Of a stretch of DNA of 64,000 nt, positions 12,133-22,230 are shown in pieces. A model generated the notes under the pieces. That model saw nothing but the letters and a program-made list of their open reading frames with translations. It did not search any database and was not told where the DNA came from. Position 1 is the first letter of the stretch; each line of letters opens with the position of its first letter. Source of the stretch: Albidovulum sediminis (GTDB lineage Bacteria; Pseudomonadota; Alphaproteobacteria; Rhodobacterales; Rhodobacteraceae); NCBI RefSeq assembly GCF_025380365.1, contig NZ_JAOCQF010000001.1:558001-622000 (forward strand), given 5' to 3'. Made by a program: the position numbers and the translations under genes.

Positions 12133-13362
12133 TCATTTCAGGCCCATTTCGGCGGCCACCGCCTGCAACCGGGCCTGCGCCGCGGCGTCGCCCGCAAAGA
12201 CCGCGCGTGCCCTCTCCAGCGCCGCCCGCGCCGCCTCGGCCTCGCCCAGGACGATGCGCGCGCGGATCAGCCGGTGCCAGCCCTCGAGGTCGTCGGGCGC
12301 CTGTTCCAGCCGCGCGGCCAGCCCCTCGACCATGCCGCGGATCATCACCTGCCGGTCTGCGGCACTCATCTCCTGCGCGGCGGCGATGTCGGCGGCGGTG
12401 GGGCCGGGTGCCGTCGGCGTCTCCGCAAAGCCCGGCTGCCCGGCCAGGTCGATCCCGGCCGCCGGCGCGCGGTCGCGGATGCGGTCGCGCAGTTCGCCCG
12501 TCCAGGCCGCATCGGCCGGCGCGCCCTTCAGGATGTCGAGCCAGAGCGTCACCGCGCCTTTTGCGTCGCCCGCCTGATCCATGGCCAGCCCCTGGAAGAA
12601 GCGCGCGCGCGGGTTCCGCGGGTCGGCCGCCAGCGCCCCGGCAATCGCGGCGTTTGCCCGGTCCGTCACCCGGTCACCATCGGCGCGCACCAGCGCCTCT
12701 GCCCTGAGCGACAGGATCTCGGCGTCGCCGGGGGCAAGCTCGGCCGCGCGGGCATAGGCCGCCGCCGCCTCCTCGAACCGGCCGGTGCCGGAATAGGACC
12801 AGCCGAGCATCTTCCAGCCGTCGAGGTTGTCAGGCTCCGCCTCAAGCCGGGCAGCGAGGCGCGCGATCATGGTGTCGACATCGGCAAGTCCCGGCGCCTG
12901 CGGGCTGGCCGCAGCGGTGCCGGGCGCGGGTGTCATCGCGCCGGTCGGCGGCGGCAGCAGGAGTTGCGGCTGAGGCGGCAGGGGTGCGGCGCGCGGCGCG
13001 CCCGCGGCCAGTTCGGGCCGGCCCGTCGCGCCGTAGAGGAGCGCGCTGCCGACCACGACCCACCCCACCGTCACCGCGGCCACGGCGACCTCCGTGCCCT
13101 TCGCCAGTCCCCTCATCGCGTCCCCTTCCGCCTTGCGCGCGGCCGCCACCACGCGCCGTTCGATCTCGCGCCGCGTCGCCGCGGCATCCTCGGCCGATAC
13201 AGTGCCCTCGGCCACGTCGCGGTCAAGCTGGCGCGCCTGTTCGCGAAAGACCTCGATCCCCGCGACAGCCGGACCCCCGTCCGCGCGCCGGCGCAGGAAG
13301 GGCAGGGCGACCGTCAGCGCCGCGAGCGCCGTCAGGCCCGTCAGCGCCAGCCACAGCGTCAT
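12133..13362 (-). CDS. ccmI: Cytochrome c maturation protein CcmI (CycH)
   Basis: 409 aa apocytochrome c chaperone of the System I haem-ligation complex. Two N-terminal membrane spans (residues about 2-22 and 95-115) flank a cytoplasmic charged loop. The periplasmic part contains TPRs (WKMLGWSYSGTGRFEEAAAA and following) that hold apocytochrome C-termini. Its start overlaps the ccmH stop by 4 bp (ATGA), giving ccmF-ccmH-ccmI in one unit. Confidence 0.9.
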   Translation of the reverse strand: MTLWLALTGLTALAALTVALPFLRRRADGGPAVAGIEVFREQARQLDRDVAEGTVSAEDAAATRREIERRVVAAARKAEGDAMRGLAKGTEVAVAAVTVGWVVVGSALLYGATGRPELAAGAPRAAPLPPQPQLLLPPPTGAMTPAPGTAAASPQAPGLADVDTMIARLAARLEAEPDNLDGWKMLGWSYSGTGRFEEAAAAYARAAELAPGDAEILSLRAEALVRADGDRVTDRANAAIAGALAADPRNPRARFFQGLAMDQAGDAKGAVTLWLDILKGAPADAAWTGELRDRIRDRAPAAGIDLAGQPGFAETPTAPGPTAADIAAAQEMSAADRQVMIRGMVEGLAARLEQAPDDLEGWHRLIRARIVLGEAEAARAALERARAVFAGDAAAQARLQAVAAEMGLK

Positions 13363-13841
13363 CGCTCACGCCCCTCGTCCAGAAGGGCGGTGGCGAGCGC
13401 CCGGTCCGCCTCGCTCATCTCCGGGGCGGGGGCGGGCGCGCGCCGCCGCCAGAGCCGGGCAAAGCCGAAGACCGTCAGCATCAGGAACAGCACCGGGCCG
13501 GACCAGAGGAGCCAGGTCAGCGGCCGGACCGGCGGGTTCAGCAGGACATAGGTGCCGAAGCGGTCGACCAGAAAGGCCACCGCCTCGGCGTCGCTGTCGC
13601 CGGCGACCAGCCGCTCGCGCAGGATCACCCGCATGTCGCGCGCGATGGCCGCGTTCGAATCGTCGATCGACTGGTTGCGGCAGACCACGCAGCGCAGGTC
13701 GCGGCTGAGCGCGCGCGCCCGCGCCTCAAGCGCGGGGTCGGCCAGCACCTCGTCGGGCAGGACGGCGTGGACGGGCAGGGGTGCCAGCGCGGGCAGGGCC
13801 AGCACAAGCAGAAGCGCCAGGCAACCGAGCCACGCCCTCAT
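13359..13841 (-). CDS. ccmH: Cytochrome c maturation protein CcmH (Ccl2/CycL)
   Basis: 160 aa thiol-redox protein of the haem ligase. It has a signal anchor (AWLGCLALLLVLALPALAPL) and the family active site LRCVVCRNQSI, which reduces the CxxCH thiols of apocytochrome, then a second membrane span near residues 108-128. ATG 13841 overlaps the ccmF stop. Length matches the short alphaproteobacterial CcmH, with the TPR function in the separate CcmI. Confidence 0.93.
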   Translation of the reverse strand: MRAWLGCLALLLVLALPALAPLPVHAVLPDEVLADPALEARARALSRDLRCVVCRNQSIDDSNAAIARDMRVILRERLVAGDSDAEAVAFLVDRFGTYVLLNPPVRPLTWLLWSGPVLFLMLTVFGFARLWRRRAPAPAPEMSEADRALATALLDEGRER

Positions 13842-15814
13842 GCCGGTTCCCCCTGCGCTACGGGCCGGGCCGAGAAGGCGCCGACGCGGAAGCGCCGGTC
13901 GGCCAGCGACAGCGCCCCGCCAAGCGCCATCAGGAGCGGCCCGAACCAGATCAGGAGCACGAAGGGGTGGTGGTAGATGCGTGCCCCCCACTTGCCCCCG
14001 TCCGAGGCGCCGCTGACCGAGACGTAGAGGTTGCTGAGGAACCGGGGCGCGATCGCCGCCTCGGTGGTGACGCGCCGGCTGACCGGGTAGAATCGGCGCT
14101 GCGCCTCGAGCGTGGTGACGGGCGCGCCGCCACGGCTGACATCGAAGACCGCCCGCTCGACCTCGTAATTCGCCTCGAGCGCCACCGCGACGCTGCGCAG
14201 GGTGAAGACATAGCCGCCCGCGGTCGCACTTTCGCCCTCGGCCAGCGCGACGATGACCTCCTCTTCCCAGAGCGTGACGCAGGTGATGCCCGCGACCAGA
14301 AGGCCAAGCCCGGCATGGGCGGCGGCCATGCCCCAGGTCGCAAGCGGGGTGGTGCGCAGGAGCGCCCAGGTGCGCGCGGCCGGCAGGCGGAAGGGCTGGA
14401 TGCGGGCAAGGATGATCCAGAAGCTGCCGATGACCAGCCAGAAGGCCAGCCCCAGCCCCAGCGCCGCACCAAGGCCCGCCGCGCCGAAGGCGGCGAGCGA
14501 CCCGCCGGCCACCACCGCCGCACCCGCCAGCGGCCAGCCGAGCCGCGCCAGCGCCGCGCGCAGGTCGTCGCGCTTCCAGCGCAGGAAGGGGCCCGCGGGC
14601 AGCGCCAGGCAGAGAAGCACCATGATCGGCCCGAAGCTGCGGTTGAAGTAGGGCGGCCCGACCGAGATCTTCTCCGGCCCGATCAGTTCGACGAAAAGCG
14701 GGTAGAAGGTGCCCAGGAATACCGTCGCCGTCGCCACCACCAGAAGGATGTTGTTGAGGATCAGCGCGCCCTCGCGGCTGACCGGGCGGAAGGCGGCTGA
14801 GGGGTCGAAACCCTGCGCGCGGGCGGCAAAGAGCGTCAGCGCGCCGCCGGTGAAGGCGACGAGGATCGCCAGCACCCCGATGCCGCGCGCGGGGTCGGTG
14901 GCGAAGGCGTGGACGCTGGTGAGGACGCCCGAGCGCACCACGAAGGTGCCGATCAGGCTGAGCGAGAAGGTCAGGATCGCCAGCAGGATCGTCCACACGA
15001 TCAGCGTCTGGCGCCGCTCCACCACCAGCGCGGAATGCAGGAGCGCGGTGCCCACCAGCCAGGGCATGAAGCTCGCGTTCTCGACCGGGTCCCAGAACCA
15101 CCAGCCGCCCCAGCCCAGTTCGTAGTAGGCCCAGTAACTCCCCAGCGTGATGCCGACGGTCAGGAAGATCCAGGCCGCCAGCACCCAGGGCCGCACCAGC
15201 CGCGCCCAGGCCGCGTCCACCCGCCCCTCGATCAGCGCGGCCACCGCGAACGAGAACACGACCGAGAAGCCGACATAGCCGAGGTAGAGGAAGGGCGGGT
15301 GCAGGATCAGCCCGATGTCCTGCAGCAGGGGGTTAAGCTCCATGCCCTGCTCCGGCGCGGGGTGAAGCCGGGTGAACGGTCCCGAGGTGAAGAGGCTCAG
15401 CGCCAGGAAGGCCGTCGCGATCATGCCCTGAACCGCCAGGGTGCGGGCCTTCAGCGTCGCGGGCAGCGCCCGGCCGAAGAGCGCGACCGCCGCCCCGAAC
15501 AGCGCCAGGATCAGCACCCACAGAAGGAGCGAGCCCTCGTGGTTGCCCCAGGCCGCCGACAGGCGGTAATGGAGCGGCATCGTCGCATTGGCGTTGTTGG
15601 CGACGACCAGGACCGACAGGTCGGCCTCGGCGAAGGCCGCCAGCAGCATCGCGAAGGCCAGCGCCACGAAGCCGAGTGTCGCGACCGCGGCGGCATCGGC
15701 AAAGCGCATCAGCACCGGATTGCGCCGCCAGGCGCCGAAAAGCGGCAGCAGCGACTGCGCCGCCGCGACCATCAGCGCCAGGATCAGGGCGAACTGCCCG
15801 ACTTCAGCCGTCAT
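13838..15814 (-). CDS. ccmF: Haem lyase CcmF
   Basis: 658 aa polytopic membrane protein that transfers haem from CcmE to apocytochrome c. The WWD haem-handling domain is clear (GGWWFWDPVENASFMPW), with conserved histidines nearby (SAAWGNHEGSLLLW; LLQDIGLILHPPFLYLGYVG). It heads ccmF-ccmH-ccmI; ccmABCD, ccmE and ccmG are not in the window. Neighbouring multihaem and sox cytochromes would be its clients. Confidence 0.95.
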   Translation of the reverse strand: MTAEVGQFALILALMVAAAQSLLPLFGAWRRNPVLMRFADAAAVATLGFVALAFAMLLAAFAEADLSVLVVANNANATMPLHYRLSAAWGNHEGSLLLWVLILALFGAAVALFGRALPATLKARTLAVQGMIATAFLALSLFTSGPFTRLHPAPEQGMELNPLLQDIGLILHPPFLYLGYVGFSVVFSFAVAALIEGRVDAAWARLVRPWVLAAWIFLTVGITLGSYWAYYELGWGGWWFWDPVENASFMPWLVGTALLHSALVVERRQTLIVWTILLAILTFSLSLIGTFVVRSGVLTSVHAFATDPARGIGVLAILVAFTGGALTLFAARAQGFDPSAAFRPVSREGALILNNILLVVATATVFLGTFYPLFVELIGPEKISVGPPYFNRSFGPIMVLLCLALPAGPFLRWKRDDLRAALARLGWPLAGAAVVAGGSLAAFGAAGLGAALGLGLAFWLVIGSFWIILARIQPFRLPAARTWALLRTTPLATWGMAAAHAGLGLLVAGITCVTLWEEEVIVALAEGESATAGGYVFTLRSVAVALEANYEVERAVFDVSRGGAPVTTLEAQRRFYPVSRRVTTEAAIAPRFLSNLYVSVSGASDGGKWGARIYHHPFVLLIWFGPLLMALGGALSLADRRFRVGAFSARPVAQGEPA

Positions 15815-15883: not shown

Positions 15884-17017
15884 TCACTTGTAGAGCGAGA
15901 ACTCGATCCGGCGGTTCCTGCCCTTGTTGAAGGCGGAATCGTTCGGAACCATGGGATGCGCCTCTCCGAAGCCCGCCGAGTAGAGCCGGCGCCGGTCGAC
16001 ACCGCGGCTGGCCAGGTAGTCGACGACCGATTGCGCCCGCTTTTCGGACAGCGCCTGGTTGTAGGCGTCGGAGCCGTCGTCGTCGGTGTGCCCCGAGATC
16101 AGGAGCCGCAGGCCGGGGCAGCGTTGAACGATGTCTACCACGGTCCCGAGCAAGAAGTCGCTTTCCTGATCGAGCCGCGCGCTGCCCGAGGCGAAATAGA
16201 TGTTGCCGGTCTCCGACAGGATCTCGAACCGGCCCACGCATTCCTCGTAGGTAAACTCGCCCTGCGTCTCAAGCGCGGCCGAGGGCTGGGGCGCCGGCTC
16301 TGCCGCCCCTTCGGCAGCCGCTGGGGGTGTCGCGACGACGGTGCCGGCCTCGGCCACCTGTGCCGCTGCCCCCGCCACGCGGCGGTTGAAGGTGAACTGG
16401 TAGGTGATGTTCATCTCGGGCACGATGGTGAAGCCGCCCGCGGTCTCCGCGATCTTGCGCAGGTTGTTGCCAAGCTGGAAGTCGTCGACCTTGAACAGGA
16501 TCGGATGGGCCGAGGCCGCCACGAAGCGGTCGTTGCCGTCCGGGGTGATGATCGCGTCGGTGACCAGCCGGTTCGAAGCGCCGTGAATCTCCATCGTGAA
16601 GGGGAACTGCACCTGTTTCTGCCCGCCAGGGGCCAGCCCCGCGGCCATGTCCGGCGTCAGTTGCGCCGTCACCACCGCCTCGGGGAACTTGAAGGTCTCG
16701 AAGAACAGGAACCGCATCCGCACGTTGCGCAGGTCGTTGCGGGTGTCGACGGATTCGAGCTTGACGTTGATCGTGGCCTTGCCGTCCGCCTCGATCGAAC
16801 TGGCGAAGGTCGCGAAGGAGTGGGTTTCGACCACGTCCTGCCCGTCGACGTTCTTGATCGAACTGAAGCGGATGAACGAGGTCGCGGGATCAAGGTCCCA
16901 GCCGGGGGCGAAGGGGCTGTCCTGCGCTACGGCCGCCGGCCCCGAGAGCAGAACGCAGAGCGCCGTGAAGACCGCGGCCAAACGGCCATCGAGTTGCCAA
17001 AATCCCCTGCCAAACAA
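15884..17017 (-). CDS. Secreted YceI-domain / OmpA C-terminal-domain fusion protein
   Basis: 377 aa from TTG 17017, chosen because it gives a signal peptide ending about GPAAVAQ-DS. Longer in-frame starts at GTG 17101 and ATG 17203 add residues that do not look like a signal, and the choice is uncertain. The first part resembles YceI lipocalin-like domains (WDLDPATSFIRFSS, ESVDTRNDLRNVRMRFLFFE), which bind isoprenoids or quinones in the periplasm. After an Ala/Pro linker comes an OmpA-like peptidoglycan-binding domain (LLISGHTDDDGSDAYN; RRIEFSLYK). It lies 70 bp upstream of ccmF on the same strand and diverges from the caspase-like gene. The domain combination is uncommon and suggests a wall-anchored lipid or quinone-binding protein. 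Confidence 0.75.
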   Translation of the reverse strand: MFGRGFWQLDGRLAAVFTALCVLLSGPAAVAQDSPFAPGWDLDPATSFIRFSSIKNVDGQDVVETHSFATFASSIEADGKATINVKLESVDTRNDLRNVRMRFLFFETFKFPEAVVTAQLTPDMAAGLAPGGQKQVQFPFTMEIHGASNRLVTDAIITPDGNDRFVAASAHPILFKVDDFQLGNNLRKIAETAGGFTIVPEMNITYQFTFNRRVAGAAAQVAEAGTVVATPPAAAEGAAEPAPQPSAALETQGEFTYEECVGRFEILSETGNIYFASGSARLDQESDFLLGTVVDIVQRCPGLRLLISGHTDDDGSDAYNQALSEKRAQSVVDYLASRGVDRRRLYSAGFGEAHPMVPNDSAFNKGRNRRIEFSLYK

Positions 17018-17281
17018 TTCCCTGCCCTCGCTGGTTGCCCGCAAACCGGTCGTTGCACGGGACAGGACCCAGATGACCCAAAGGCCGGAAGATCGAATCA
17101 CGCGCGCACCTGGCAAGGCAAGGTTAGCCGTGCCCCGTGAGCTTGCCAAACACTCGTTGCCGTCGGGTAAGGCCGCGGCGGCGCCGTCTGTCGCGTTCGG
17201 CATCGCCCATGGCGTTGCCCTGTTGCGGCGGGGGGCCCTGGGGGCGTATCCTGCGGGCCAGCGCCGAACAGGACCGGGTCA

Positions 17282-18580
17282 ATGACATTGTCTCGTCTGC
17301 TTGCCTTTTTCGTCCTCCTCCTCTCGCTCGCCGCGACCGGCGCGCGGGCCGAGCTTGTGCTGGCCAACAGGGGTGACCAGGGCGAACGGCGCATCGCGCT
17401 GGTGATCGGCAACGGCGGCTACCTATCGATCGGCGGGCTCGACAATACCGTCAACGACGCGGCCCTGATGGCCGACACGCTGACCGGCGCGGGCTTCGAT
17501 GTGACGAAGCTTCTGGACGTGGACCAGAACGCGATGAAGCGCGGCATCGCCAACTTCGGCCGCGCGCTGCGCGAGGCCGGGCCCGAGACGGTCGCGCTGT
17601 TCTACTACGCCGGCCACGCCGTCCAGTCCTTCGGCAACAACTACCTTCTGCCCGTCGATGCGGCGATCCGGGACCAGGCCGACCTCGACCTTGTGGGGGT
17701 GGAGGCGGGCTGGATCCTGCGGCAGCTTTATTCCGCCCGCGTGCGCACCAACATCGTCATCCTCGATTCCTGCCGCAACAACCCGTTCCCGAACGTGATG
17801 GGGTTCCATGACCAGGGCCTGGCCGAGATGAACGCGCCGACCGGCACCTTCATCGCCTATGCGACCGCGCCTGGCAGCGTCGCGCTGGACGGGCTGACCG
17901 GCAACAGCCCCTACACCAGCGCGCTTGCCGACGCGATCCGGAGCGAGCGGGCGTCGATCGAGCTTCTGTTCAAGAAGGTGCGGGTGAAGGTGCTGGAAAC
18001 CACCGGGGGGGCGCAGACGCCGTGGGAAAGTTCCTCCCTGACCGAGGATTTCCTGTTCCACCCCGCCGCGGCACCGGCCACCGCGCCGGCTGCGCCCGCG
18101 GCACCGGGAACCAATGCCGAAGAGACGCTCTGGACCTCGGTCAAGGACAGCGGCGACCGCACGCAGGTCCAGCTTTACCTATGGACCTTCCCGCAGGGCG
18201 CCCACCGGACCGAGGCAGAGGCGCTGCTGGCCGCACTCGCCCAGCCGAAGCCGGCCGCCCCCGCACCCGCGGACGGGCAGGGGGCGGTCGAGGTCACCTT
18301 CACCTCGCCCATCGCAGGAGGGGAGCCGCAGATCGTCGGCAAGTCGATCCAGGAACTGATCAAGTCGCAGCCGCTCTACCCCCCGTTCGAGGGCGTGCCG
18401 GACGAGCTGTGGAAGGGCCAGCAGTGCACCAACTGCCACGAATGGACGATGGAGCGGATCTGCGAACAGGCGCGGTTCTACATCACCGAACAGGCCGAAC
18501 GCTCGCTCGACAAGCCCCATCCGCTCGGCACCGAGTTCAAGCAGCACCTGCGCAACTGGGCGATGGGCGGATGCCGCTAG
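17282..18580 (+). CDS. Secreted caspase-like (peptidase C14) protein with C-terminal CxxCH motif
   Basis: 432 aa with signal peptide (LLAFFVLLLSLAATGARA). Residues about 36-260 form a caspase/metacaspase p20-like domain (RRIALVIGNGGY) with both catalytic residues: His112 in FYYAGHAVQ and Cys164 in ILDSCRNNPF. An Ala/Pro linker and a short helical region follow. The last 55 residues carry CTNCHEW (Cys382-His386), a perfect c-type haem attachment motif, plus further Cys at 394 and 431. Export would let the Ccm system attach haem. It is convergent with the barrel gene, 28 bp apart. A weak promoter, TTGCGG-N18-TATCCT, lies at 17223-17252. Substrate and partner are unknown; haem binding is a prediction. 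Confidence 0.82.
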   Translation: MTLSRLLAFFVLLLSLAATGARAELVLANRGDQGERRIALVIGNGGYLSIGGLDNTVNDAALMADTLTGAGFDVTKLLDVDQNAMKRGIANFGRALREAGPETVALFYYAGHAVQSFGNNYLLPVDAAIRDQADLDLVGVEAGWILRQLYSARVRTNIVILDSCRNNPFPNVMGFHDQGLAEMNAPTGTFIAYATAPGSVALDGLTGNSPYTSALADAIRSERASIELLFKKVRVKVLETTGGAQTPWESSSLTEDFLFHPAAAPATAPAAPAAPGTNAEETLWTSVKDSGDRTQVQLYLWTFPQGAHRTEAEALLAALAQPKPAAPAPADGQGAVEVTFTSPIAGGEPQIVGKSIQELIKSQPLYPPFEGVPDELWKGQQCTNCHEWTMERICEQARFYITEQAERSLDKPHPLGTEFKQHLRNWAMGGCR

Positions 18581-18608
18581 GCTCTGCCGCCCGGTCCGGC
18601 CCGCCGCC

Positions 18609-20414
18609 TCAGAACGATTTCGACACCCCGGCCACCAGATAGAATTCGCGCTGGCGCACGCTCGTCGTCGCGGTATCCCGGTCCGACCAGCGGCCGCCCG
18701 CGTCGAATTGCAGGCTCGTCGTGCGGTCGATGCGATAGCGGAAGTTGACCGAAGGCATGACGAAGGTTTCCTCGCCGTCGTCCATGTCGCGATAGCCGAG
18801 CCGCAGCCGCGGGCTGATGTGCATGTGGTCGCCCAGCGGGATGCGGATCGATCCGTCGGCGACGTAAAGGCTGCTGTCCTCGGCATCGGCATAGCGCAGG
18901 CCGAGGTTCACGCGGTCATCCGGCCGGAAGATGTCCGACCCGGTGAAGCGGACGCCGTAGTAGCCCCGCACGCCGTCGTCGTCGACCGCCGCGACCCCGC
19001 CAGATGCGGGCGTGCCGCTGTTGTGGTAAAGCGTGCCGTCGAGCGACAGGTCCCAGGTCTCGTTCAGCTTGCCGTAGTAGGTGAGCCCCACGGTCGTCAC
19101 CTTGGCCGAGCGGTCGATCGCCAGATCCTCGACCGCATCCTCTCCGAACAGCAGGATCAGGTCGTCGACCGTGTCGGCGGTCTGCCCGATCAGCGCATTC
19201 TCGAGGTTCAGCGTCGGACTGCGGTAGTAGGACAGCCGGCCCGTGACGCGCGCGCTGTTCTCCAGCGTCGCCGCCCCGGTCAGAAGGACGCGGCTGATCT
19301 CCTGGAACTTCAGGTCGTATTCGGCGTTGCCATAAAGGCTGAAGCGGTCGAAGGAGCGTTCGTATTCCACCCCCAGCGCGTGGCGGTAGGTCAGCGATCC
19401 GTCCCGTTCCATCGCGGTGTAAACCGTCAGGTCGCCGGCGCCGCCCAGATCCTCCCAGGTGGCACTCGCGCCCAGAAGCCAGCGGTCGCCCGACAGGAAG
19501 TCGTCGCGCGAGCTTTCCACCACCCGGCCCAGCACCGTGCCCAGCGTCACGCCGCCGGTCGGCCAGCGCAGCGACACGCCATCGGTCCGGTAGGCGATGG
19601 CGCGCGGGTCGAGCCGCTGGCGACCGACGGTGATGACGCCGCCCGAGACCTTGTCCTCGAAGGCGACATAGGCCTCCGACAGGCGCAGGTCGCTCTCGCT
19701 GTCCTCGAAGTCGTGGTCGGCGATGCCGGAGAATGTCAGCCGCATCTCGCGGTCGCCGCGGGTGACGATGCGGGTGTAGTTCAGCCCGGCGACCAGCGCG
19801 TTCTCGAAGGTGTCGTCCTCTTCCTCGGGCTCGTCCGGGTCGGGGACAAGCTCGGTGATCTCGGTCGTGCCCTCGTTGTAGCGGTAGGTCAGGGTGAACA
19901 GGCCGCGGTCCTTCACCGTCGTCCCGGTCGAGGCCGCGTCCGCCGTGGCCGCGGTCTGGGCGGCCGAGCGCCGCGGGGCCGCGGGCCGCACTGCGGCGGG
20001 GCCGGGGGCGGCGGCGGTGGCGATGGACGGGGCAGGCGGGTTCTGCGGGATCGGCGAGGCGCCGGACAGAAGCCCGTTCAGCCGGTCCTGCACCCGCGCC
20101 GCGCCGTCGCCGTTGGGATACTTCTGAAGATAGGTCTCGTACTCCGCCTTGGCATGGGCCAACTGCCCGTTCGCCTCGCGGATATTGCCCAGAAGCTCCT
20201 GCGCGCGGGCGCTGTAGGCGTGCTCGGGCATCGCGGTCAGCCGCGTCAGAAGCTGTACGGCGTGGATGTATTCCTGCGCGTCGATCGCCTGCTGGGCCTG
20301 TTGCATCAGGTTCTCGACCGCGGCACTCGGCGCGGCGGTCTGCGCGGCGGAAAGCTCTGCCTGCCCGATCTGAAGCGCCAGGACCATCAGGCCGATGCTC
20401 TTGATCCTCTTCAT
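18609..20414 (-). CDS. Predicted outer-membrane beta-barrel protein with N-terminal TPR domain
   Basis: 601 aa. A signal peptide (KSIGLMVLALQIGQAELSA) is followed by TPR-like helices (residues about 30-115, AQELLGNIREANGQLAHAKA). An Ala/Pro-rich linker comes next, then about 430 residues of alternating amphipathic strands with aromatic girdles (RGLFTLTYRYNEG, GVTLGTVLGRVVESSRDD, ISPRLRLGYRDMD). It ends in ...GVSKSF, the terminal Phe expected for Bam-dependent barrels. An acidic loop, DPDEPEEEDD, lies between early strands. No CxxC near the N-terminus, as in MtrB/PioB, is seen. It lies 118 bp downstream of the 21-haem cytochrome on the same strand, so the two are probably cotranscribed; a role as sheath or export pore for that cytochrome is an inference. 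Confidence 0.72.
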   Translation of the reverse strand: MKRIKSIGLMVLALQIGQAELSAAQTAAPSAAVENLMQQAQQAIDAQEYIHAVQLLTRLTAMPEHAYSARAQELLGNIREANGQLAHAKAEYETYLQKYPNGDGAARVQDRLNGLLSGASPIPQNPPAPSIATAAAPGPAAVRPAAPRRSAAQTAATADAASTGTTVKDRGLFTLTYRYNEGTTEITELVPDPDEPEEEDDTFENALVAGLNYTRIVTRGDREMRLTFSGIADHDFEDSESDLRLSEAYVAFEDKVSGGVITVGRQRLDPRAIAYRTDGVSLRWPTGGVTLGTVLGRVVESSRDDFLSGDRWLLGASATWEDLGGAGDLTVYTAMERDGSLTYRHALGVEYERSFDRFSLYGNAEYDLKFQEISRVLLTGAATLENSARVTGRLSYYRSPTLNLENALIGQTADTVDDLILLFGEDAVEDLAIDRSAKVTTVGLTYYGKLNETWDLSLDGTLYHNSGTPASGGVAAVDDDGVRGYYGVRFTGSDIFRPDDRVNLGLRYADAEDSSLYVADGSIRIPLGDHMHISPRLRLGYRDMDDGEETFVMPSVNFRYRIDRTTSLQFDAGGRWSDRDTATTSVRQREFYLVAGVSKSF

Positions 20415-20532
20415 CCTCTGCCCCCGTCTGGTTCAGGAGTGGGCCGGCCCTTGCGGCTCGTTTCCCCGGTGTCGCGCGCGTCCCGTTGCGGGCACACGCC
20501 GTGTTTAGTCATGGTGTCCGACGCCACGCCCA

Positions 20533-22230
20533 TCAAAAGCCGGTGTGGCAGCCGCGGCAGTCGTCGATGATGTCATGCGTCTGGCGCCCCGATCCGGGGT
20601 TGTTCGGATTGAGCGTCGAGTCGGCGAAAGTGAAGTGGCAGTCGACGCAGTCGCTGTTGTCGGTGGCCACGATGTGGTTCATCACCGGGGTCGGCGGCTC
20701 GCCCGCGTTGTGGCAATCGGTGCAGTCGTTCGAGGTAATCGCGCTGACCACATGGAAATCCGGCTGCGTCGGCGCGCCCCAGTTGTTGCCCGGAACGTGG
20801 CAGCTTGCGCAGTTCAGCGTCGTCTCGTCGTGGTCGAGCATCGCCGCCGCGAACGAGGAGGTGTCGTGGCAGGCCGCGCAGTCGTCGGTCGTTTCGGTGT
20901 GCCAGACGGGCTGGGTCGGCGCGGTGAAGGTGTTGCCGGCGAAGTGGCAGGTGGCGCAGTCGCCGATCGTCTCGGCGTGGTCCACGTCCAGCGCCGCCGT
21001 GAAGCTGTCGGTCGAGCCGTGGCAGGCGGCGCAGTCGTCCGTCGTCGGCATGTGGTCGCCGGGCTGGCTGGGTGCGCCGAAGGTGTTGCCGGCGAAGTGG
21101 CAGGTGGCGCAGTCGCCGATCACCTCGCCATGGTCCACGTCCAGCGCCGCCGTGAAACTGTCGGTCGAACCGTGGCAGGCGGCGCAGTCGTCCGTCGTCG
21201 GCATGTGGTCGCCGGGTTGGCTCGGCGCGCCGAAGGTGTTGCCGGCGAAGTGGCAGGTGGCGCAGGGCTCCGCCGTCTCGGCGTGATCGAAGGTGCGCCC
21301 GATCGAGAAGGCCATCGTGTTGTGGCATTCCGCGCAGTCCTGCGACACCGGCGGGTGGCTCGGCGGCTGCGATTCCGCGCCCCAGGGGTTGCCGTCGAAG
21401 TGGCAGGACACGCAGGCGCCCGGCACCGCGTCGTGGTCGAGATTGACGACGGTGAAGCTGCGCTCGAAGAAGGGTGTGTGGCAGCTGTCGCAGGTTTCGG
21501 GCGCGGGGATGTGGTCGACCGGCTTGCCCATCGCGGTGGTGCCGTTGTGGCAGTTGGCGCAGGGCTGGTCGATCAGCAGGTGGTCGACCGAGGCCCCGGC
21601 GAAGGTCAGCGTGCCGTGGCACGAAGCGCAGTCGTCCGGTGCCTCGATGTGGTCGGCGGGCTGGCCCGGCGCGGTGGCGCCGTTGTGGCACGAGGCGCAG
21701 GAGCCGATGACGTCGCGGTGGTCGACGCGCACGTCCTTGCGGTTCGTGGTGACGTGGCAGTTGTCGCAGCTGTCGGTGGCCGGAATGTGGTTCGCCGGCT
21801 TGCCGCGCGCCTTGGCTCCGTTGTGGCAGGTGACGCAGTCCTGGCTGATGGCGGTGTGGTCGAAGGCGAAGGGCACGAAGTTGCGCGAGGTGTGGCAATC
21901 CTGGCAGGCGTTGCCGACCGGCGGGTGCGAGGCGGGCTTGCCCCGCGCGATCACGCCGTTGTGGCACGAGGCGCAGTCGCTCGGCGTGCCGGCGGTTGTG
22001 TTGTTGACGTGGCAGGCCTCGCAGAAGATCTCGGCATGGCGCCCGGTCAGCGGGATGCCCCCCGCCTGCACGTGATCGAACCCCGGCATCGAATTGGCGC
22101 TGTCCTGCGCCGCGGCCGGTCCCGCGACGGACAGGATCACGGCGATGAGGAGCGCCACGAAAATTCCGATGGCGGCCGCGCCGCTACGCCGTGCCCTGCC
22201 GATCGACGGTCCGAATGGCCGATGGATCAT
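20533..22230 (-). CDS. Secreted multihaem cytochrome c with 21 CxxCH motifs
   Basis: 565 aa from ATG 22230. A candidate promoter at 22294-22322 would start RNA near 22287, which argues against the in-frame GTG at 22284. A signal peptide (residues about 17-41, ends GPAAAQ) has no lipobox. The mature part holds 21 CxxCH motifs, about one haem per 25 residues. Most are preceded 8-10 residues earlier by a His (FDHTAISQDCVTCH, HIPATDSCDNCH), the spacing of bis-His haem ligands in class III-type multihaem proteins. Early units share CHNG-x-x-A-x-GKP-x-x-H; later units are near-identical 51-residue blocks with two haems each. No other domain is visible, so it is likely an electron wire. The barrel gene follows. 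Known MtrA/PioA decahaem proteins are shorter and differ in layout. Confidence 0.9.
   Translation of the reverse strand: MIHRPFGPSIGRARRSGAAAIGIFVALLIAVILSVAGPAAAQDSANSMPGFDHVQAGGIPLTGRHAEIFCEACHVNNTTAGTPSDCASCHNGVIARGKPASHPPVGNACQDCHTSRNFVPFAFDHTAISQDCVTCHNGAKARGKPANHIPATDSCDNCHVTTNRKDVRVDHRDVIGSCASCHNGATAPGQPADHIEAPDDCASCHGTLTFAGASVDHLLIDQPCANCHNGTTAMGKPVDHIPAPETCDSCHTPFFERSFTVVNLDHDAVPGACVSCHFDGNPWGAESQPPSHPPVSQDCAECHNTMAFSIGRTFDHAETAEPCATCHFAGNTFGAPSQPGDHMPTTDDCAACHGSTDSFTAALDVDHGEVIGDCATCHFAGNTFGAPSQPGDHMPTTDDCAACHGSTDSFTAALDVDHAETIGDCATCHFAGNTFTAPTQPVWHTETTDDCAACHDTSSFAAAMLDHDETTLNCASCHVPGNNWGAPTQPDFHVVSAITSNDCTDCHNAGEPPTPVMNHIVATDNSDCVDCHFTFADSTLNPNNPGSGRQTHDIIDDCRGCHTGF
20941..21246 (-). 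repeat. 153-bp tandem repeat inside the multihaem cytochrome gene
   Basis: Two nearly identical 153-bp units (20941-21093 and 21094-21246) start with the same GAAGTGGCAGGTGGCGCAG, and a third partial copy begins at 21247. Each unit encodes 51 residues with two CxxCH motifs (CATCHFAGN... and CAACHGSTD...). The few differences include silent changes, as expected of a recent in-frame duplication. Confidence 0.9.

Follow-up and report, generated by a model that had tools for sequence, protein, structure and literature searches.

A PCC3-type cytochrome and porin gene pair in Albidovulum sediminis, most likely a two-gene outer-membrane electron conduit

Does a multihaem cytochrome encoded beside a predicted outer-membrane barrel protein in Albidovulum sediminis carry electrons across the outer membrane, and if so, is the system of a new kind? 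The question is raised by a stretch of 64,000 nucleotides (the window; contig NZ_JAOCQF010000001.1, positions 558,001 to 622,000, assembly GCF_025380365.1), in which a preliminary description had proposed a possible new electron conduit made of a 21-haem cytochrome, a barrel protein with N-terminal tetratricopeptide repeats (TPRs) and a caspase-like protein with its own CxxCH motif. Here we show by sequence comparison that the cytochrome and barrel genes are homologous to genes of PCC3-type clusters and stand in the same cytochrome-then-porin order. The pair appears to be a PCC3-type module of the outer membrane, reduced to two genes, that most likely acts as an electron conduit.

PCC3 was put forward in 2017 as a putative porin-cytochrome complex (He et al., PMC5566968). 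By that description it combines a porin with multihaem cytochromes, both extracellular and periplasmic, and with an inner-membrane protein, some 300 amino acids long, marked by an SGxxG motif, two WX3HX13H motifs and five transmembrane helices; its reported occurrence covers Alpha-, Beta- and Gammaproteobacteria, and a role in iron oxidation is suspected (PMC5566968). Motif counts of 21, 24 and 27 are given for the periplasmic subunit and of 10-35 for the extracellular one (PMC10734462), and copies with 24 + 14 and 24 + 12 haems have been described (PMC12442390).

Homologues of the cytochrome and barrel genes

The two genes and their parts are as follows.

20533-22230, minus strand: 21-haem c-type cytochrome, secreted, 565 amino acids, with 21 CxxCH motifs; homologue of the PCC3 extracellular-type multihaem cytochrome
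21331-22104, minus strand: conserved N-terminal half of the cytochrome, residues 43-300, holding the first 10 haems, with its boundary falling inside a further CxxCH (at 299)
18609-20414, minus strand: TPR-barrel protein, predicted to be in the outer membrane, 601 amino acids; homologue of the PCC3 porin
20064-20324, minus strand: TPR-like stretch near the N-terminus of the barrel protein, roughly residues 31-117, where a profile of eight homologues matches CpoB TPR
18612-19901, minus strand: predicted beta-barrel part, about residues 172-601, assigned chiefly by homology, the strand scan being weak alone

The secreted cytochrome thus adjoins the barrel protein on the minus strand, as first described, with a gap of 118 bases. 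Its 21 CxxCH motifs far exceed those found when its residues were shuffled (mean 0.22, maximum 3, 2000 trials). It has 22 histidines outside these motifs, or 21 without His3, which lies ahead of the signal anchor; this leaves one per haem, regularly spaced, a count and spacing that would fit bis-histidine ligation of every haem. The protein has 26.9 residues per haem, inside the PCC3 range of 22-39 (PMC5566968). Thirteen stretches match PF14522 above its cut-off, the TIGR04257 nanowire domain stays below (32 bits, cut-off 40), and TIGR03508 (DmsE/MtrA) stays far below (74.2 bits, cut-off 192.2). When compared with solved structures, a profile of the cytochrome gave matches to portions of UndA, MtrC, MtrF and further multihaem proteins, and the single sequence gave weak matches, some of them chance-looking.

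The identity of the cytochrome was indicated by a genome outside the genus, G416. The 27-haem protein of that genome is 36% identical to the window cytochrome (E 2.8e-94) and shares its first eight haem spacings exactly (16, then 23 seven times), and the 24-haem protein of the same genome is 25% identical (E 7e-16). The window cytochrome is therefore much closer to the variable 27-haem protein than to the 24-haem one, and corresponds to the extracellular-type PCC3 subunit, with a predicted location to match. The barrel protein aligns over about 600 columns with the porins of two PCC3-type clusters, those of G298 (29% identity, E 9e-53) and G416 (25%, E 2e-38).

Barrel matches were sought in three samples: 101 genomes, counting the window's own (G000), and 385 at the class and 398 at the phylum level, each of these two drawn from larger groups and including both G000 and G416. 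Among the 101 genomes, full-length barrel matches occurred in two, G000 and Defluviimonas sp. WL0075 (G011), those in G057 and G071 being weak and partial, and the cytochrome was matched in the same two alone. At E<=0.001, the class search returned nine genomes, three with matches over most of the protein (the window genome, G416 and G298) and six with short N-terminal ones. A profile search of the phylum sample at E<=1e-5 returned 15, six of them full-length (G000, G416, G664, G770, G772 and G476) and nine short and confined to the TPR part.

In all six full-length relatives outside the genus, a multihaem gene similar to that of the window lies directly upstream of the barrel gene, with CxxCH counts of 27 (G416), 11 (G770), 34 (G664), at least 10 (G772), at least 11 (G476) and at least 6 (G298), the last three being minima because the open reading frames (ORFs) are open at the end of the stretch; the gene in G476 matches the window cytochrome weakly (E 8.5e-15). 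ORFs in the fetched loci begin at the first possible start and may be overlong. In G416, G770 and G664 the inner-membrane protein comes first, followed by the 24-motif cytochrome, the variable cytochrome and the barrel. G298 (completeness 96%, contamination 8%) has its cluster split over two contigs, with the inner-membrane protein and a 21-motif cytochrome on a separate contig from the barrel. The PCC3 periplasmic cytochrome and inner-membrane protein were thus found in four of the six relatives, and two WX3HX13H motifs and SGxxG are common to the four inner-membrane proteins; in G772 and G476, read at the locus only, the contigs end before the region.

The barrel protein begins with a leader that, judged by eye, is hydrophobic with an AxA-like site at its end, and its C-terminal phenylalanine is invariant in the eight homologues aligned. 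The N-terminal TPRs that had been read from the sequence fell below the Pfam cut-off when searched singly (17.9 bits, cut-off 25.5) and were recovered firmly, as a CpoB TPR match at E 8.6e-8, with a profile of the eight homologues. The reported lack of an MtrB-type CxxC also holds, as the protein contains no cysteine, and its barrel part matched no Pfam family, MtrB included, at E<=1; an MtrB-type barrel was rejected on both grounds. Among solved structures, the barrel profile found TPR proteins and one weak non-TPR chain (E 0.78). In a tree of eight barrels, those of the window and G011 are nearest to that of G298 (92/93, not starred), and that of G476 is on a long branch. The porins of G416, G298, G770, G772, G664 and G476 have an extra N-terminal region (a SPOR domain in G298) that the window barrel lacks.

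The comparison with known systems places the pair closest to PCC3, with which it shares a homologous extracellular-type cytochrome and porin, their order and similar residues per haem; it differs in that no periplasmic multihaem cytochrome or inner-membrane protein was detected in the window genome and the N-terminus of the porin is shorter than in the relatives read. With MtrCAB, MtoAB and PioAB it shares the layout of a cytochrome plus an outer-membrane barrel and a weak profile likeness to MtrC, UndA and DmsE/MtrA, but the barrel lacks an MtrB/PioB match and the cytochrome carries 21 haems, not 10, and scores far below the decahaem DmsE/MtrA family. The haem repeats match the cytochrome c7/c3 type (PF14522, TIGR04257) in PF14522, but the haems are far more numerous and the protein is paired with a barrel. 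Since the high haem number and the non-MtrB barrel are traits of PCC3, the proposed conduit is not of a new type. The proposal itself gains from the PCC3 homology as far as the cytochrome and barrel are concerned, and loses its novelty of type and its caspase.

Passages of PMC13386937 and PMC11475568 held nothing against the match to the PCC3 description. Full-text searches on PCC3 in Rhodobacteraceae and on multihaem proteins or extracellular electron transfer in Defluviimonas, judged by titles and the starts of abstracts (and not the supplementary lists of PMC5566968), gave nothing on this locus, and a full-text search on PCC3, multiheme and Alphaproteobacteria gave PMC5566968 and PMC10734462 alone.

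Several related arrangements were seen along the way. G770 has two extracellular-type cytochromes, of 11 and 13 motifs, flanking its PCC3-type barrel on either side (L093:8937-13474). A gammaproteobacterial metagenome-assembled genome encodes an ORF of 2054 amino acids with 80 CxxCH motifs (L046:4149-10313), 38% identical to the window cytochrome over the repeats, lying downstream of an extracytoplasmic function (ECF) sigma factor; nothing in its stretch matched the barrel. Plasmid records yielded no barrel match and one relative of the cytochrome (27% identity), on the Emticicia plasmid pEMTOL02 (L052:6846-13373), where two adjacent cytochrome c3 family genes, a CcsA gene and a 538-amino-acid protein with no Pfam match at E<=0.01 form a possible multihaem cluster. 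A pattern scan of genome contigs gave seven loci, one of them close, and missed the PCC3-type clusters, so that it is no census.

The inner half of the cluster

The two inner components of PCC3 were searched for in G000 (4.29 Mb, completeness score 100%) and G011. With the G416 inner-membrane protein as query, the best match in G000 had an E of 0.0975 (a 57-amino-acid frame with a stop) and G011 gave nothing, compared with 4.2e-51 for the independent control, G298. A profile of four inner-membrane proteins reached 0.125 in G000 and 0.061 in G011 at best (its controls, 1e-128 or better, are the profile's own rows), and none of the weak stretches in either genome held an ORF with WX3HX13H, so that a protein of about 300 amino acids with SGxxG and two such motifs was found in neither. 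Queried with the 24-haem cytochrome, G000 gave no match and G011 gave the 20-haem homologue of the window cytochrome plus one stretch at E 0.11, compared with 1.1e-95 in the independent control (G298). A four-row profile of periplasmic cytochromes returned the window-type cytochrome itself in both genomes and, in G000, a stretch of 34 positions (E 0.63) with no CxxCH nearby; a periplasmic multihaem cytochrome of 21-27 haems was thus found in neither genome by these searches. NapC/CymA (PF03264) likewise gave no match in either, with E. coli positive among 14 control genomes. All of these searches are sequence-based, and a replacement unrelated in sequence would escape them.

Because two defining inner parts were searched for and not found, we do not class the locus as a full PCC3. 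What is new, as judged from the gene content, is that G000 and G011 retain only the outer half of a PCC3-type cluster. Partial sets are known already (11, beside 26 complete ones, in Gallionellaceae genomes; PMC10734462); the window genome is scored complete. The finding suggests that PCC3 does not have to move as a block of four genes.

The retained genes look to be under purifying selection, with dN/dS (nonsynonymous to synonymous substitution ratio) between the window and G011 of 0.28 for the cytochrome, 0.29 for the barrel and 0.21 for the caspase; the values for aroA, ccmF and cmk span 0.10-0.23. Their GC content at third codon positions (GC3; 0.89-0.93 for caspase, barrel and cytochrome) is like that of the neighbours (0.86-0.93), and horizontal gain is not supported by base composition. 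In 15 relatives, the stretch of 6-8 kb ahead of aroA held no match to ccmF, the caspase, the barrel or the cytochrome and a single partial OmpA match of 71 amino acids (L118); gene order there thus differs from that of the window, and no clean insertion edge was seen.

How the pair may work

We put the probability that the cytochrome and barrel form the outer-membrane half of a PCC3-type porin-cytochrome conduit at about 0.68. By analogy, the variant pair probably works like the outer half of PCC3. Both proteins would be exported, with the porin in the outer membrane. Between the window and G011, whose homologue has 20 haems, the cytochrome is 90% identical over residues 43-300 and 62% over residues 301-565, a pattern that may mark the N-terminal half as the docking part and the second half as extending outward. 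The first ten or so conserved haems would then dock in or on the porin, and the variable half would form a chain of bis-histidine haems pointing outward from the cell. Electrons would pass, in one direction or the other, between the periplasm and an outside partner (a metal, a mineral or another cell). On the periplasmic side another carrier would stand in for the missing partner, or else the 21-haem chain would by itself span the periplasm. If the pair conducts, Defluviimonas-type bacteria become candidates for extracellular electron transfer. A natural two-gene version without a detected inner half or NapC/CymA offers a small system for the study of outer-half function.

Six points weigh against this reading. 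The PCC3 assignment follows published gene content and motifs rather than a comparison with named PCC3 sequences. PCC3 is itself called functionally unverified (PMC12442390), so that function is assigned by analogy. Neither of the dedicated partners, periplasmic or inner-membrane, was found, which leaves the path incomplete as known. The published five transmembrane helices were not cleanly seen in the inner-membrane proteins of the four relatives, where a crude hydropathy scan gave 4, 1, 4 and 3 segments under strict and 5, 5, 6 and 5 under loose settings. An amphipathic-strand scan of the barrel was weakly above chance (19 peaks in the window protein, a shuffle mean of 13 and 12 of 500 shuffles reaching 19; 20 peaks in the G011 protein, reached by 2 of 500), and homology is the main evidence for the barrel. 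Finally, AlphaFold models of the barrel and of the cytochrome, each predicted singly from a two-sequence alignment (window and L045), were unusable, with a mean pLDDT (predicted local distance difference test) of 30.8 and 31.2, respectively.

A bolder version of the conduit, which we hold possible on the less favoured side, is a self-sufficient module in which the 21-haem chain would do the work of both PCC3 cytochromes and plug into ordinary periplasmic carriers. PCC3 would then be modular and portable between respiratory chains.

The barrel may instead be a channel for exporting or anchoring the cytochrome, which would then sit on the surface and act by itself as an electron store or sink, not as a conduit across the membrane. 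TPR-plus-barrel layouts occur in transporters such as Slam and PgaA, and the N-terminal TPR region of the barrel, the variable C-terminal half of the cytochrome and the failure to find a periplasmic partner in either genome fit such a role. However, the barrel part matches no Pfam family at the threshold given above, and is accompanied by a similar multihaem gene in every relative outside the genus, and we consider an export channel unlikely. Still less probable is a decaying, functionless leftover of a PCC3 cluster that lost its inner half: the undetected inner half and the shorter N-terminus of the barrel would agree with decay, but both genes are open in two species with dN/dS near 0.28 and have the GC3 of their neighbours.

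The caspase and the surrounding genes

The outer-half conduit reading covers two of the three genes first proposed. The third and the further neighbours are as follows.

17282-18580, plus strand: caspase-like (C14) protein, secreted, 432 amino acids, with a C-terminal CxxCH domain; Peptidase_C14 E 2.5e-36; a neighbour outside the conduit
18263-18577, plus strand: C-terminal CxxCH domain of the caspase, its last 105 residues, conserved in 8 of 8 sequences
15884-17203, minus strand: YceI-OmpA protein, the usual partner of the caspase and outside the conduit; OmpA E 2.4e-21, YceI E 2.9e-11
13838-15814: CcmF, confirmed
12133-13362: CcmH/CycH-type TPR protein, confirmed
526-1806: flavocytochrome c sulfide dehydrogenase flavoprotein, near the left edge of the window

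The convergent, secreted caspase-like protein is present as described, 28 bases from the barrel gene and with its own CxxCH at residue 382. Caspase-domain matches occurred in 42 of the 101 genomes, and nine loci besides the window, picked for the strongest or C-terminal matches, were read. Seven loci (the window, G011, G005, G025, G026, G028 and G033) encode a caspase with the CxxCH domain, and in all seven a YceI-OmpA gene lies within about 0.8 kb. Five of them (G005, G025, G026, G028 and G033) lack the conduit genes; in four, all but G025, the pair is followed by 474-amino-acid-type and 210-amino-acid-type proteins, ImpA, VipA and VipB of a type VI secretion system (T6SS). No ImpA, VipA or VipB match was found near the caspase in G025 (18 kb), G011 (18 kb) or the window (64 kb). 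The window's caspase and OmpA genes are thus members of this pair, whose copy here differs in lying beside conduit genes without these T6SS matches.

Since the caspase pairs with YceI-OmpA in genomes without the conduit genes, it belongs to another, often T6SS-linked, gene set, and was rejected as a conduit part. The link of the caspase to the other two proteins, first given as one of position only, fails the proposed co-occurrence check; cytochrome and barrel pass it, with full-length matches in the same two genomes. In the proposed mechanism the caspase would be a mere neighbour. That all three genes make up one new system is highly improbable, as the identical arrangement in both genomes with conduit genes and the close convergence of caspase and barrel are outweighed by the five genomes with the caspase and YceI-OmpA alone, four beside T6SS genes, and by the lack of any caspase match (E<=1e-4) in the PCC3-type stretches outside the genus.

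The His/Cys dyad motifs are present in all seven full caspases. The C-terminal domain retains a CxxCH, a third cysteine, an HP pair and a near-terminal cysteine in all eight sequences, and its motif makes it a candidate haem-binding domain. G010 encodes this domain alone, in an ORF of 138 amino acids without a caspase part (L042:8294-8710), and G096 has two caspases without a CxxCH motif.

A promoter and terminator scan of the locus gave no signal above chance. The sox and ccm genes reported in the window were borne out for ccm, by CcmF and the CcmH/CycH-type protein; on the sox side the flavocytochrome c sulfide dehydrogenase flavoprotein alone was seen in the part of the window genes that was scanned. 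The gene order of the window from ccmF to rpsA is retained in G011.

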